The notes beneath the pieces are model-generated. The model was not told where the DNA came from. It was given only the letters and a program-made list of their open reading frames with translations, and did no database searches. This document shows, in pieces, positions 13,899 to 53,568 of a stretch of 64,000 nucleotides of DNA; the first letter of the stretch is position 1; every line of letters begins with the position of its first letter. The position numbers were made by a program, and so were the translations under genes. Origin of the DNA: Cohnella sp. AR92 (lineage in GTDB: Bacteria > Bacillota > Bacilli > Paenibacillales > Paenibacillaceae); the NCBI RefSeq assembly GCF_003990975.1, contig NZ_RZJR01000005.1, positions 65,869-129,868 on the forward strand, in the 5' to 3' direction.

Positions 13899-14009
13899 CT
13901 TCCCGCATAAGCAAACGAAGCATTGTAAAATATTGATGGATTAAAGCGATTTATTTCGTTTTTTCTAAGTAAATTATTGAAATTAACGAGTTTATTAACG
14001 GATATTCAT

Positions 14010-14038
14010 TTTACAACTTAGAATGTTTGAACTAAAAT
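14010..14038 (+). promoter_or_regulatory. marR promoter/operator sharing sequence with the ugd promoter
   Basis: TTTACA (14010-14015), 17-base spacer, TAAAAT (14033-14038). The -35, spacer and -10 are nearly identical to the minus-strand element at 28289-28317 before the UDP-glucose dehydrogenase gene: TTTACAACTTAGA, one variable base, T, one variable base, then TTTGAACTAA. Conservation of the spacer points to an operator. AACT recurs 15 bases apart within it. Confidence 0.7.
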
Positions 14039-14067: not shown

Positions 14068-14523
14068 GTGAGTACCGAGTTCCATGTGAATCCGGACATG
14101 ATCGTCCAGTTATATAATGAAATATCCAAGCACTTCTCCAGCCAGCGCGTCAGACGGCTCGCCGAGCATCTGCGCAAGAACGACCTGTCGCTTAATCAGT
14201 TCTCGGTTCTGAACATCGTGAACCATGAGAGCGAATGCTCCTCCATTCACCTAGCCAACATGCTTAAGCTTAAAGCGGCTTCCATTACCTATATTATCGA
14301 TCTATTGGTCAAGAGAGGGCTGGTGGATCGAGTGGAGAATCCGGAAGACCGGAGAAGCCACTTTATCAACCTGACCGAAGAGGGCAGGAAGCTGTTGGTC
14401 GTACCCGAAGACACGGCCGATCTCATCCAATCGTTCGAAGCCTTGGAACAGGACGATCTGGATATGCTTTATCTGTCGCTTCGCGTCCTGAAGAACCGAA
14501 TCATCAGGAACGACAAGAAATGA
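14068..14523 (+). CDS. MarR-family transcriptional regulator
   Basis: 151 residues with a typical winged helix: SIHLANMLKLKAASITYII as the HTH, GLVDRVENPEDRRSHFINLTEEG as the wing, flanked by dimerisation helices. Start is GTG 14068, in frame with the full domain. It is 30 bases upstream of a YhgE/DUF3533-type membrane protein, and MarR genes commonly control such exporters. Its own promoter spacer is duplicated almost exactly before the uronate operon at 28.3 kb, so this protein is the prime candidate for binding both sites. The ligand is unknown. Confidence 0.9.
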   Translation: MSTEFHVNPDMIVQLYNEISKHFSSQRVRRLAEHLRKNDLSLNQFSVLNIVNHESECSSIHLANMLKLKAASITYIIDLLVKRGLVDRVENPEDRRSHFINLTEEGRKLLVVPEDTADLIQSFEALEQDDLDMLYLSLRVLKNRIIRNDKK

Positions 14524-14553: not shown

Positions 14554-15816
14554 ATGAGAAGATTGCTCGCAATCAAGATCGCTTGGTTCCCCGTATGGGT
14601 CGTGGCGGTGCTGATGATGGCAATGATCAGCGTCTATCTGCCCGTGTTCAGCGGCGGCACCCAACGGGTCCACGATTTTCCTCTAGTGATCGCGAATGAA
14701 GACCCTGCCTTCGCCGAATCGGCGATCGGGCAGAAGATCACTCAGCAGCTGACGACGACGTCCGGGGACAAAATCCATTGGACCCTGGAGAAGAGCAAAC
14801 AAGACGCTCTGGACACGATCGAGAAGGACAAAGCCTTCGGCGCTCTCGTTATTCCGGCCGGCTTCTCGGACGCCTTGGCCAAGCTGGACGCTTCGCTTAA
14901 AGCGGGAGACGCGAACGTCGAGCCCGTTCCGCTCGAGATTCTGATCAACGAAGGCAGCGGACAGCTCTCCACCTCGGTCGCGTCCGCCACCCTGCAGCAG
15001 ATCGCCGCTTCGCTGACGAGCGCGTACAGCGCGCAGATGTCGGCCGAGCTCTCGGCGAACGGAATTACCGTCACTCCGGCAGGCGCGGCTCTCCTCGAGA
15101 ATCCGATACGGACGACGACGGCCAACGCGCTTGGATTGCCCGCCAACCTTAACAAAGGCATGACTCCGTTCGTGCTGACGATCATTCTCTCCATCGGCGG
15201 CCTCATGGGGACCCAGATGATTCACGGGTTCCTGAGCAAGATCGTCGAGAGCATCAAAGCTAGAGGGGGGCGTCTCAGCCGAACAACCGTACTCGCCACG
15301 GAGTTCCTGCTAGGATTGGCTTTGATCCTGGGGATCTCCATTCTCGCGCAGCTCTTCGTGTTCGGCATCTTCGGCAGCGTGCATACCGCCGCTCTCTGGA
15401 AGATCTTCCTGTTCACCCTGCTCTGCCAGCTGACCATGTTCTTCCTGTTTAAGACGGTCACCCTGATCTTCGGCGGCAAGTGGGCGATGCTCGCGATGTT
15501 CCCCATCAATATTCTCGGGATCTTCGCCAGCGGCGGCGCCATCGCCCTTACGGGACTGCCGGCGTTCCACCGCTTCTGCAGCTACTTCCTGCCGACTCGA
15601 TATATGGTCGACGGCTTCCGGTCCCTTCTTTATTACAACGGCAAGATGGAGTCGGGTCTGGGACTGGCATTAATCGTAATCGTCACTTATCTCGCCGTCT
15701 TCCTGTCGTTCTGCATCGCCAAGTTCTTCCTTGCGCATCACCAGGACAAGAACGACAAGGCGGCGAAGCCCGAAGCGGCGCCGCAGGCTCATGCGGCGGC
15801 AGCGAGTCACGCTTAA
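14554..15816 (+). CDS. YhgE/Pip-type ABC-2-like membrane protein (DUF3533)
   Basis: 420 residues: one N-terminal membrane helix (10-32), a ~170-residue extracytoplasmic domain (VIANEDPAF..., FGALVIPAGFSDAL, EILINEGSGQ), then five or six helices (about 208-228, 252-274, 284-306, 316-338, 380-402) and a charged Ala-rich tail. This is the YhgE/Pip architecture, found in proteins near type VII-like loci and in drug-efflux or lipid-related roles. ATG 14554 follows AGGAGA. It is co-transcribed with the marR gene and followed by a strong terminator. Confidence 0.82.
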   Translation: MRRLLAIKIAWFPVWVVAVLMMAMISVYLPVFSGGTQRVHDFPLVIANEDPAFAESAIGQKITQQLTTTSGDKIHWTLEKSKQDALDTIEKDKAFGALVIPAGFSDALAKLDASLKAGDANVEPVPLEILINEGSGQLSTSVASATLQQIAASLTSAYSAQMSAELSANGITVTPAGAALLENPIRTTTANALGLPANLNKGMTPFVLTIILSIGGLMGTQMIHGFLSKIVESIKARGGRLSRTTVLATEFLLGLALILGISILAQLFVFGIFGSVHTAALWKIFLFTLLCQLTMFFLFKTVTLIFGGKWAMLAMFPINILGIFASGGAIALTGLPAFHRFCSYFLPTRYMVDGFRSLLYYNGKMESGLGLALIVIVTYLAVFLSFCIAKFFLAHHQDKNDKAAKPEAAPQAHAAAASHA

Positions 15817-24774: not shown

Positions 24775-25068
24775 TTATCCTTTGGAGCCTTGCGCCGCCC
24801 TGTCCGTGTTCCTCATCAGAATCAGATTGCGCGCGTAGATGAAGATCCCGGGAACCTGGCCTAGAATGTATACAGGGTCCTTCCGGTAGATGGCGTAGAC
24901 GGACAGAATCGAGCTGCCCAGAATGCCGAATACCCAGAAGGACTTCGTCACGACGCTCTGCTTCGCCTTCTCGCTCGCGATCCACTGAACGACGAAGCGT
25001 CCCGTGAACATCAGCTGGCCGATCAAGCCGAAGCCGATCCAGAACCATTCCCGCGCATGACTGCTCAT
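24775..25068 (-). CDS. Lipid-A-disaccharide synthase N-terminal-like (LAB_N) membrane protein
   Basis: 97 residues, three membrane helices. The LAB_N pattern is clear: GFGLIGQLMFTGRFVVQWIASE, then SFWVFGILGSSILSVYAIYRKDPVYILGQ and IYARNL. In proteobacteria such stand-alone domains sit beside DPM1-type glycosyltransferases and ArnT-like enzymes. A role as membrane partner for the adjacent GT2, handling a polyprenyl-phosphate sugar, is inferred from context only. Start ATG 25068 lies 2 bases after the GT2 stop codon. Confidence 0.85.
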   Translation of the reverse strand: MSSHAREWFWIGFGLIGQLMFTGRFVVQWIASEKAKQSVVTKSFWVFGILGSSILSVYAIYRKDPVYILGQVPGIFIYARNLILMRNTDRAAQGSKG

Positions 25069-25070
25069 CC

Positions 25071-25778
25071 TTACTCGCCTCTGATCTGATAGTTTATCTT
25101 GCGCTTGCGGAGCCAGCCGATGACGATCGCGTCCATCAGCCCGACGAACGCCCGGTTAAGCACCCCGTACTTGGACGTGCCCGACGTTCGCTCGCGGTGG
25201 CCGACGGGAACCTCGACGACGCTGAAGCCGTTCATTCTCGCCAAGGTCGGCAGGAAGCGGTGGAAGCCCTCGTATAGGGTGAAGCTCTGGGCCACCTCGC
25301 GCTTGAACAGCTTCATCGGGCAGCCGGTATCCTGAATCCGGTCTCCCGTGATCTTGTTGCGTACCCCGTTGCCGACTTTGGAAGAGACCTTCTTGACCAG
25401 CGTGTCCTTGCGGTTGACCCGCGTTCCGTTGGCGAAATCATATTCCTTCATATAAGGCAGGAGCTTGATGATATCCTCGGGGAAGGTCTGCAGGTCCCCG
25501 TCCATCAGCGCGACGTAACGTCCTTCGGCCGCCTTGAGGCCCGCGGCGATGGCCGCCGTCTGCCCGCAGTTCTTCTCGAAGTGGATGACGCGCAGCTTGG
25601 CGTCGCTCTCGGCGAGCTTATCCAGCTGGGGGCCGCTGCCGTCCGTGCTTCCGTCGTTCACCAGAACGATCTCATAGTCCTCGAGATGGGGGTTAAGCGC
25701 CCCCGTAATGGCGAAGTAAAGCCGAATCAGATCGTCTCGTTCGTTATAGATCGGAACGACAACCGACAATTCCATCAT
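25071..25778 (-). CDS. Family 2 glycosyltransferase, dolichol-P-mannose-synthase-like
   Basis: 235 residues, GT-A fold: SVVVPIYNERDDL, VLVNDGSTDGSG, the metal-binding MDGDLQ, and DTGCPMKLFKREV with the catalytic region. It has no C-terminal membrane helices, unlike ArnC or GtrB, so the neighbouring LAB_N protein may supply membrane anchoring. The likely reaction is sugar transfer from a UDP-uronic acid to undecaprenyl phosphate. The start at 25778 has GAGGG 8 bases upstream and overlaps the epimerase stop (ATGA). Confidence 0.87.
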   Translation of the reverse strand: MMELSVVVPIYNERDDLIRLYFAITGALNPHLEDYEIVLVNDGSTDGSGPQLDKLAESDAKLRVIHFEKNCGQTAAIAAGLKAAEGRYVALMDGDLQTFPEDIIKLLPYMKEYDFANGTRVNRKDTLVKKVSSKVGNGVRNKITGDRIQDTGCPMKLFKREVAQSFTLYEGFHRFLPTLARMNGFSVVEVPVGHRERTSGTSKYGVLNRAFVGLMDAIVIGWLRKRKINYQIRGE

Positions 25779-26806
25779 GACAAATTCCCTCCATACCACC
25801 TTGCGAAATTCCGGATGCCTTCCTCGAACCTCGTCCGAGGCTCGTAACCGATCAGCCTCTTGGCCTTGCTTATGTCCGCGAACGTCATGGTCATATCCCC
25901 CGGCTGGGCGGGCAGCCTGTTCAGGACCGCCTTCTTGCCCAGCTCGTTCTCGAGGCAGGCCACCATCTCGTTAAGCGACACCATCCGGCTGTTGCCGAGG
26001 TTCACCACCTCATAGACCGATTCGTTATTCTCTACATAGGAGAGCGCCCCGCGAATTCCGCTTACGATATCTCCGATATAGGTATAGTCTCTCTTCGTGG
26101 AGCCGTCCCCGTAGAACGGAATCTCCTTGCCTTGGTCGATCAGCCTGGCGAATTTATGAATGGCGAGGTCCGGCCGCTGCCGTTCCCCGTACACCGTGAA
26201 GAAACGAAGCATGATGCTATCGATTCCATAAAGATGATGATACGTATATCCCATGAGCTCGTTGCTCTTCTTCGTAGCCGCATAGAGCGAGATCGGGGAA
26301 TCGACCGAATCGCTCTCCGAGAAAGGAACCTTCGTATTATTGCCGTATACCGAGGACGAGGATGCGCATACCCACTTGCGGACGCCGTATTTCTTCATCG
26401 TCTCCAGCAGCAGGAGCGTGCCCCTGACATTGACGTCCTCGAACAAGAGAGGCTGTTCGATGGAAGCCCGCACGCCGGGCAAGGCCGCCAGATGGACGAC
26501 GGCATCGATCCGTTCGGATTGGAAAATACGCTCCAGCGCATGCGCATCCCGTATATCGACCGTCTCCAAGCGATACTGCGCGCTGTCCAGGCTGCGGCTC
26601 AGCTCGGCCAGGGCAGACTCCTTGTCGGACAGGGCGGCAACGTTCTCCCGGCAGGTATCCTGTTGGACGTTGCGGATCTTGACGCGATAGTCGTAGGAGT
26701 CGGAGAAGCTGTCGAGGGCGATCACGCGATGCCCGCCGGCCATCAGGCTCTCGCCGAGATGCGACCCGATAAACCCCGCTCCGCCGGTAACCAGATAGGT
26801 TGCCAT
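25775..26806 (-). CDS. NAD-dependent nucleotide-sugar epimerase (UDP-glucuronate 4-epimerase type)
   Basis: 343 residues, extended SDR. The NAD-binding GGAGFIG (8-14), active-site Tyr/Lys (YAATKKSNE) and the segment FFTVYGERQRPDLAIHKFA, typical of UDP-glucuronate 4-epimerases, are present. It directly follows the UDP-glucose dehydrogenase gene, so UDP-GlcA to UDP-GalA is the most economical reaction. UDP-glucose 4-epimerase activity is the alternative. It is 4 bases from the dehydrogenase gene and overlaps the GT2 start. Confidence 0.88.
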   Translation of the reverse strand: MATYLVTGGAGFIGSHLGESLMAGGHRVIALDSFSDSYDYRVKIRNVQQDTCRENVAALSDKESALAELSRSLDSAQYRLETVDIRDAHALERIFQSERIDAVVHLAALPGVRASIEQPLLFEDVNVRGTLLLLETMKKYGVRKWVCASSSSVYGNNTKVPFSESDSVDSPISLYAATKKSNELMGYTYHHLYGIDSIMLRFFTVYGERQRPDLAIHKFARLIDQGKEIPFYGDGSTKRDYTYIGDIVSGIRGALSYVENNESVYEVVNLGNSRMVSLNEMVACLENELGKKAVLNRLPAQPGDMTMTFADISKAKRLIGYEPRTRFEEGIRNFARWYGGNLS

Positions 26807-26810
26807 GAGT

Positions 26811-28154
26811 TCATCCTCCCCTTCTCTTCAGCCCGATCGGCCGATAGTCGAATAGCTGCCGTATCTCGCCGTTCGCGGCGAACATGTTCCTAAGGTCGAG
26901 CATGGCTTGGCCCCTCATGGAAGCCTTCAACCGGCGCAGATCCAGGCCGAGGAACTGAGGCCAATCCGTGACGAGGACCAGAGCGTCCGCGTTCGCCGCG
27001 CAGGAATATTCATCCTCCGCGTAAACGATGGAGCCCACGCAATCTTGAAGCGCCAGCGCCGCTTGTTCCATGCCGTGCGGGCAGTACGCTCGGATCGACG
27101 CGCCGCGCTCCGCCAGCTTGCGGATGATATGCAGGCTCGGCGATTCCCGAACGTCGTCCGTTCCCGGCTTGAAGGAGAGGCCCAGAATCGCGATCGTGCG
27201 GCCGGATAAATCCTCGCCCGGGCCGACCGATTCCGCGATGCGCTCGACCATCGCATCTTGGTGGCGCTCGTTCGCCTCCTGGGAGGCCCGCACCGTCAAC
27301 AGGTCGAGACCGTGCTGGCGCGCCACGCCGATAATGGCCGAATTGTCCTTCGGGAAGCAGCTCCCGCCGTAGCCCGCCCCCGCCTGCAGGAAGCGGGGAC
27401 CGATCCGGCTGTCCAATCCCATGCCGTAAGCAAGGTCGATCACGTTCGCCCCGACCTTCTCGGACAGAAGGGCGAATTCGTTAATGAAGGCAACCTTTAA
27501 CGCCAAGAAGGAATTGGACGCGTACTTGATCATCTCCGCCGTCTCCGGATTCGTATGGACGAATGGAACGGCTTGATCGGAGTAATCCTTATAGAGAGCC
27601 GCGAGCGTCTCTCTCGCCAGCTCGCTGTCGGTGCCGATCACGACGCGGCTCGGCTCCATCGCGTCCTTCAGGGCCGTACCTTCCTTCAGGAATTCCGGAT
27701 TCATCGCCACCCCCAGAGGGTAATCGACGCCTCTTGCCCGCAGCCTCTCCCGGATAATCGCTTCGGCTTGGCGAGTGGTGCCGACGGGAACCGTCGACTT
27801 CATGACGACCGTCCGCGGTCCGTTCATATGCTCGCCGATCTCGGCCGCCACGGAGAGCACCGGATCGGTATTGGACGATCCGTCGTCCCTGGGCGGGGTG
27901 CCGACCGTTATCATCAGCACTTCGCTCTGCCGGATCATGCCGGCCAGATCCGTCGTAAATCGAAGACGGCCATTGGCGATGCCCTCCTGCAGCCGTTCCG
28001 CCAATCCCGCTTCATGAATCGGAATCTCCCCATGGTTCAAGCGCTGTATCTTATTCTCATCCACGTCTGCGCAGATGACCTCATGGCCCAGCTTCGCCAG
28101 GACGGTCCCGTAGACCAGCCCGACATAACCGGTGCCGATAATCCCTGCTCTCAT
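26811..28154 (-). CDS. ugd: UDP-glucose 6-dehydrogenase
   Basis: 447 residues. N-terminal NAD domain with GTGYVGLV, central TVPVGTT and NPEFLKEGTA, the catalytic Cys in GYGGSCFPKD near residue 260, then LGLSFKPGTDDVRESP and the UDP-binding domain. It oxidises UDP-glucose to UDP-glucuronate. ATG 28154 has AAGGAG upstream; a longer in-frame start at 28217 lacks one. It is first in a four-gene operon with a ~135-base 5' leader from the promoter at 28289-28317. Confidence 0.94.
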   Translation of the reverse strand: MRAGIIGTGYVGLVYGTVLAKLGHEVICADVDENKIQRLNHGEIPIHEAGLAERLQEGIANGRLRFTTDLAGMIRQSEVLMITVGTPPRDDGSSNTDPVLSVAAEIGEHMNGPRTVVMKSTVPVGTTRQAEAIIRERLRARGVDYPLGVAMNPEFLKEGTALKDAMEPSRVVIGTDSELARETLAALYKDYSDQAVPFVHTNPETAEMIKYASNSFLALKVAFINEFALLSEKVGANVIDLAYGMGLDSRIGPRFLQAGAGYGGSCFPKDNSAIIGVARQHGLDLLTVRASQEANERHQDAMVERIAESVGPGEDLSGRTIAILGLSFKPGTDDVRESPSLHIIRKLAERGASIRAYCPHGMEQAALALQDCVGSIVYAEDEYSCAANADALVLVTDWPQFLGLDLRRLKASMRGQAMLDLRNMFAANGEIRQLFDYRPIGLKRRGG

Positions 28155-28288
28155 GTTTCGATCTCCTTCAGTAGATAAATGGACGAAAGGGAAATAAGGC
28201 ATAGCCCACGGCTCCATGCCCTCTAAATCAATCTCTCTATCTCTATCTTTATGCTTCTAGATCCGTCCTATGTCCACCGACAACCTTC

Positions 28289-28317
28289 ATATTAGTTCAA
28301 ATAATCTAAGTTGTAAA
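28289..28317 (-). promoter_or_regulatory. ugd-operon promoter, near copy of the marR promoter
   Basis: TTTACA (28317-28312), 17-base spacer, TAATAT (28294-28289) on the minus strand. The spacer ACTTAGATTATTTGAAC differs from that of the marR promoter at only two positions. Nothing else was recognised in the AT-rich stretch 28318-28450, and the leader 28155-28288 holds no gene. Confidence 0.72.
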
Positions 28318-28453
28318 TTGAATCTTTGTTGGTAATAACCCGTTATATCAATTTTTTATTAAATTCATCAAAGTATTATTTCTATTATTATACATATCAC
28401 CCGAATCTGTCTCTTAAACTACATAATTGCATGCAATCTATTCCGCGCATCGA

Positions 28454-28490
28454 CAAAAAAAACCGCCTTCCCTTTGAATAGGGAAGACGG
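28454..28490 (-). terminator. Terminator of the CstR-like gene
   Basis: CCGCCTTCCCT and AGGGAAGACGG form an 11-bp stem with one mismatch, followed on the minus strand by eight to nine T residues. Confidence 0.85.
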
Positions 28491-28505
28491 CTGAAGCAAC
28501 CGGCT

Positions 28506-53175: not shown

Positions 53176-53383
53176 TATTCGACCTCCTCTACCCTTAGGG
53201 TAACGGTAATTCGAAGAGGCCGTCCTGCAATCCGTGCACCGATCTGCAGCCTGCCTTTATCGCAGTTATATCATCTAGATGCCTTCCGGCTTGCGGGCGG
53301 GCCTGGTTTATTCGTCAACGGGATCGGCTCATTGGCGTAATCTGTCGGAAGATGTTGCGGAGAAGAGTGGTTATTTCGAACGA

Positions 53384-53472: not shown

Positions 53473-53568
53473 ATGGATCTAAAAGACGCAATCCTCATCA
53501 TGATCAGTTTCGCATCCTTTGTTATTGCTCTTTTAACTTACATCGCTAACAACTATAAGCGAAAGTAA
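53473..53568 (+). CDS. Small holin-like type I toxin
   Basis: 31 residues: M-D-L-K-D-A, then a hydrophobic stretch of ~20 (ILIMISFASFVIALLTYIA) and a basic tail N-N-Y-K-R-K. Size, single membrane helix and tail match the putative holin-like toxins of the TxpA/BsrG group, which depolarise or disturb the membrane. AAAGGAGGTGATG ends 2 bases before the ATG and is fully complementary to the 16S 3' end. The message ends at a terminator at 53657-53688, and an antisense RNA overlaps its 3' part. The frame is too short for standard ORF calls. Confidence 0.75.
   Translation: MDLKDAILIMISFASFVIALLTYIANNYKRK

Follow-up and report, generated by a model that had tools for sequence, protein, structure and literature searches.

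The 64,000-nucleotide stretch of Cohnella sp. AR92 DNA analyzed here (the window) raises the question of why a marR gene and a uronate operon within 14.3 kb of each other carry nearly the same promoter, and whether one regulator reads both. The original prediction had placed the two copies before these genes, stressed that the spacer was conserved as well as the hexamers and considered the match unlikely to be chance, all of which was borne out. The sequence TTTACAACTTAGAATGTTTGAACTAAAAT lies at 14010–14038 on the plus strand and TTTACAACTTAGATTATTTGAACTAATAT at 28289–28317 on the minus strand; they are identical at 26 of 29 positions and at 15 of the 17 spacer bases, with one base different between the -10 hexamers. 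No copy with up to three mismatches appeared in 100 dinucleotide shuffles of the window, and the whole 6.02 Mb genome contained just these two at the same threshold, with zero matches for reversed-pattern controls. The shorter core TTAGANNNTTTGAACTAA showed no genome-wide excess (66 matches with up to three mismatches versus 112 for reversed controls), which, together with the two genomic copies, indicates a two-site element rather than a general promoter class. As both copies are found within 14.3 kb of one genome, they might have arisen when a promoter segment was recently duplicated, with no regulation in common. However, the flanks beyond the 29-mer are unrelated, and other species retain the element in one or both positions with different flanks, leaving this explanation, already disfavored, with a negligible probability.

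Within both 29-mers, an 18–20 bp imperfect palindrome, ACTTAGAATATTCTAAGT, forms a predicted operator core that fills the spacer of a sigma-A promoter. The marR promoter (14010..14038, +) has a -35 TTTACA, a 17-bp spacer and a -10 TAAAAT, and its embedded proximal core AACTTAGAATGTTTGAACTA (14015–14034, +) gave the top PWM score in the window (22.4). The core in the uronate-operon promoter (28289..28317, −), at 28293–28312, ranked second with a score of 20.5. The two window sites can be written as the imperfect palindromes ACTTAGAATGTTTGAACT and ACTTAGATTATTTGAACT, and the symmetric consensus TACTTAGAATATTCTAAGTA was obtained from 15 distinct proximal cores and the first PWM version. A PWM match at 53372 was dismissed, since its score was at the chance level of control loci. 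A core of this kind in a sigma-A spacer is predicted to be a typical MarR auto-repression operator, and because it fills the space between -35 and -10, steric repression would be the simplest mechanism.

For a MarR operator located in the -35/-10 interval, PamR (YdcH) of B. subtilis offers a tested precedent. The operator of this MarR-family autorepressor of the ydcFGH promoter was tested by EMSA and consists of an 18-bp inverted repeat between the sigma-A hexamers together with a second imperfect repeat, no other genome copies having been found (PMC5730154). The Cohnella promoters resemble it in having a palindrome inside the sigma-A spacer of the regulator's own promoter and in having a second site. 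They differ in the palindrome itself, which is TAATAAGnnnnCTTATTA for PamR, and in the position of the second site, which overlaps the transcription start in PamR but lies upstream at whole-turn distances in Cohnella, where, unlike in the PamR system, a second operon also carries the operator.

The marR gene (14068..14523, +) encodes a MarR-family winged-helix regulator of 151 aa (PF01047, 6.8e-14), with 51.9 bits against a family cut-off of 24.6. The protein was below every NCBIfam equivalog cut-off and thus belongs to no named subfamily, and its PDB relatives showed weak similarity (best E 5.8e-10). Compared with MarR/SlyA/FabT-type repressors (PF01047), it shares the winged-helix domain recognized by profile, the palindrome over the promoter and export or envelope genes as predicted targets, but fits none of their named subfamilies. 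The following gene (14554..15816, +), probably co-transcribed with marR, encodes a YhgE/Pip-like ABC-2-type membrane protein (PF12698 1.7e-20, DUF3533), which was below the cut-offs of TIGR03061/03062. The pairing of MarR with a YhgE-type partner, as first proposed, holds for the gene assignments in the window but is not constant among relatives. A YhgE-like gene comes next after marR in several Paenibacillus relatives, an MFS transporter replaces it in one examined member of the Paenibacillus clade, and the C. thailandensis marR locus gave no YhgE match, a mechanosensitive-channel homologue coming after marR there.

The assignments in the uronate operon, all on the minus strand, were likewise upheld by profiles. 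The operon contains a ugd/tuaD-like UDP-glucose 6-dehydrogenase gene (26811..28154; PF03721/PF00984/PF03720, TIGR03026 above cut-off), a UDP-uronate 4-epimerase-like SDR protein gene (25775..26806; PF16363, PF01370), a GT2 glycosyltransferase gene of the ArnC/PgfS-like, polyprenyl-phosphate sugar synthase type (25071..25799; PF00535) and a gene for a small LAB_N membrane protein (24775..25068; PF07578 4.5e-30). The nearest NCBIfam model for the GT2 protein was PRK10714 (ArnC), below its cut-off, and the epimerase gene heads the operon in C. thailandensis and C. fermenti. From this gene set, we infer the biochemical role: the ugd-epimerase-GT2-LAB_N proteins probably make a polyprenyl-linked (polyprenyl-phosphate) uronic acid destined for a lipid or polymer of the envelope. 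The envelope-stress response suggested earlier has nothing but gene content in its favor. The same genome has another GT2/LAB_N pair (72% identical) on contig C13 (7048–8059 of locus L056), which lacks the operator. A two-mismatch match to the core a few kb from this pair was treated as chance, as it overlaps the -35 of an apparently different promoter.

In Cohnella, marR is linked to the uronate operon and the two occur together, so that association alone cannot assign the regulator, and the assignment comes from Paenibacillus marR promoters. In a family set of 394 genomes, 20 were MarR-positive (homologue at E ≤ 1e-22). Non-coding copies of the element (≤3 mismatches) were present in 12 of these 20 and in one of the 374 MarR-negative genomes (Fisher p 6.5e-17); because most of the search pattern came from the window, the genome it belongs to does not count as an independent case, and the other 11 of 19 do. 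In six more MarR-positive genomes, the same promoter position had a version with 4–7 mismatches. A recurrent three-mismatch relative, TTTACAACGCAGATTGATTAAACTAATAT, found in many genomes, was rejected as coding sequence: it lies inside the tilS gene in genome G059, the one in which tilS was identified, and the other genomes were assigned to tilS by near-identical sequence, so that such matches were set aside from the family count. A match in genome G085, preceding a gene with a LacI-like start, was judged unrelated.

Among approximately 85,000 species, every exact-pattern match lay in front of marR or, in species with this marR, in front of the uronate operon. In the genus, this MarR was detected in three of 37 members (the window's genome, C. 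thailandensis and C. fermenti) and the element in the same three; the latter two have the window's gene clusters and uronate promoters with 0 mismatches to the window pattern. The MarR homologues outside Cohnella are 37–48% identical to the window protein and are followed by YhgE-like or MFS transporter genes. Distant homologues of 38–48% identity have the element in their marR promoters, and it precedes marR homologues with no uronate connection. A palindromic operator over the gene's own sigma-A promoter was found for the window, C. thailandensis and 15 Paenibacillus-type homologues. There were exceptions: G287 and G312, which are among the most divergent homologues, have weaker, displaced sites without the promoter-embedded form, and no recognizable operator was found upstream of C. 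fermenti marR, though the uronate operon of that species retains the element.

The Paenibacillus cymbidii locus connects the two kinds of target. Here a marR gene (55% identical) is divergent from ugd-epimerase-GT2-LAB_N, and the two share one common copy, which fits the search pattern and lies about 183 bp from the marR start. The family search around P. cymbidii for further homologues returned P. cymbidii itself alone. In the examined Paenibacillus genomes the element was at marR only, and in Cohnella and P. cymbidii at the uronate operon too. Conversely, no element was found at the GT2/LAB_N loci of genus members without this MarR or at the paralogous GT2/LAB_N loci of the window's genome and C. 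thailandensis. Taken together, the MarR-positive and MarR-negative genomes, P. cymbidii and the GT2/LAB_N loci without a site indicate that the element follows MarR, not the uronate genes.

These comparisons, namely 12 of 20 versus one of 374 genomes, marR promoters with no uronate genes and P. cymbidii, strongly support the proposal that one regulator, with MarR as the best candidate, serves both operons, and we predict with a probability of roughly 0.85 that MarR acts at both 29-mers. The competing explanation is that the element is a promoter of an alternative sigma factor or the site of another regulator, its proximity to marR being incidental. Hexamers and spacer are both conserved, as in sigma-factor promoters, and C. 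fermenti marR lacks the element. However, the hexamers and 17-bp spacing are those of ordinary sigma-A, and the core is palindromic and recurs without the hexamers at the distal sites described below. Furthermore, the element is essentially missing from genomes without this MarR and precedes marR in varied gene contexts. A sigma-factor class would have many copies per genome independent of marR, but the window's own genome contains two, unlike a sigma regulon, and the 374 MarR-negative family genomes yielded one genome with a match; the same figures speak against a general family of promoters with no tie to marR. Copy number and palindromy led us to reject an alternative sigma factor, and the explanation as a whole is improbable.

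The phased distal operators are a new element that the first reading of this DNA had missed. Distal sites were sought with a PWM trained on proximal sites only, using 300 shuffles, for which the floor is p = 0.003. The predicted distal operator of marR, TATTTCGTTTTTTCTAAGTA (13952..13971, +), is centered 63 bp upstream of the proximal center, with a PWM score of 14.0, the third in the window, and p = 0.003; the distal site of C. thailandensis marR is likewise at 63 bp. A weak predicted distal operator of the uronate operon, TACTTTGATGAATTTAATAA (28356..28375, −), is also 63 bp away, center to center (p = 0.033). At the other uronate promoters, p was 0.060 in C. thailandensis, 0.003 in C. fermenti (64 bp) and 0.306 in P. 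cymbidii (63 bp). Upstream of the scanned marR promoters, all distal sites were at the floor of p = 0.003 except that of L068, which was mis-anchored and lay at 42 bp once re-anchored.

When grouped by lineage, the center distances were 42, 63–64, 73–74 and 84 bp, corresponding to 4, 6, 7 and 8 turns of 10.5 bp. For these four spacing states, the 10.5-bp period gave p values from 4.5e-5 (phase fixed at zero) to 1.1e-3 (any phase), and 0.002–0.03 when the off-phase pairs of G312 (76 bp) and G287 (150 bp) were both included; because we defined the lineages ourselves and related genomes are not independent, the values are approximate. A second predicted operator at whole-turn distance is kept across lineages, G312 and G287 excepted, and most relatives carry such a second site, placed as if repressors on the same face cooperate.

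We also weighed whether the proximal site is MarR-bound while each distal copy is an independent site or a remnant of a duplicated promoter, their spacing being coincidental or a consequence of RNA polymerase geometry. There are only about four independent spacing states, the site pairs of the divergent homologues G312 and G287 fall out of phase, and the distal site is weak at uronate promoters, all of which would fit. On the other hand, the intervening sequence varies by lineage and yet the distances shift only in whole turns, and several genomes have a distal score near or above the proximal one. We regard such independence as doubtful, though not remote, and a cooperative phased operator pair as moderately probable.

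From the observed conservation, co-occurrence with marR and spacing, we infer binding, repression and cooperativity as follows. Each 29-mer would be a sigma-A promoter whose 17-bp spacer holds an operator, related to ACTTAGAATATTCTAAGT, for the MarR protein encoded by the adjacent gene, and a MarR dimer bound there would obstruct RNA polymerase. MarR would thereby control its own gene together with that of the YhgE-type exporter, and ugd-epimerase-GT2-LAB_N as well in Cohnella and P. cymbidii. With the second operator whole turns farther upstream, at 63 bp in both promoters of the window, a second dimer would sit on the same face of the helix and make repression stronger, either cooperatively or via a short loop, and a ligand would release both operons jointly. 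LacI bridges two sites as a tetramer, and MarR proteins are as a rule dimers, so bridging by MarR would need dimer–dimer contact or DNA bending. Short-range repression loops of LacI span 6–8 DNA turns (PMC5081198), and the present pairs resemble them in spacing, with two predicted operators at whole-turn distances in the 63–84 bp range. Searches of open-access papers for either operator string, MarR with looping or HpaR operators found no directly relevant paper.

The P. cymbidii locus suggests that the uronate operon could have entered the regulon through a shared divergent operator of that kind, before the 8–14 kb separation in Cohnella. The combined proposal, in which dimers of a MarR subfamily cooperate over phased pairs 4–8 turns apart, on the same face or through a short loop, and the uronate operon was captured via such a divergence, is tentative, at slightly less than even odds. 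An uncharacterized MarR subfamily is assigned a predicted binding site and a two-operon regulon, and one regulator would link an exporter with the uronic-acid modification of a Gram-positive envelope. The naturally occurring spacings of 4, 6, 7 and 8 turns would offer a ready test of MarR dimer cooperation through DNA phase.

The uronate mRNA leader (28155..28288, −) has the run GGTTGTCGGTGGACATAGGACGGA directly after the promoter and is well conserved across three Cohnella sequences. It contains a hairpin, GGCATGGAGCCGTGGGCTATGCC (28198–28220), followed by a U-rich stretch, and this GGCAT...ATGCC hairpin with the U-rich stretch after it is present in four species. The hairpin may be an attenuator; an Rfam search of the leader gave no match, and a simple terminator scan did not call the hairpin a terminator. 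Directly upstream of the operon is a gene for a CsoR/RcnR-type metal-sensing repressor (PF02583; 28506–28772, −), separated from it by a terminator-like repeat at 28461–28492. Elsewhere in the window, a short ORF, MDLKDAILIMISFASFVIALLTYIANNYKRK (53473–53568, +), is followed by a terminator-like repeat and looks, by eye, like the small hydrophobic proteins of type I toxin-antitoxin systems of the TxpA/BsrG kind.
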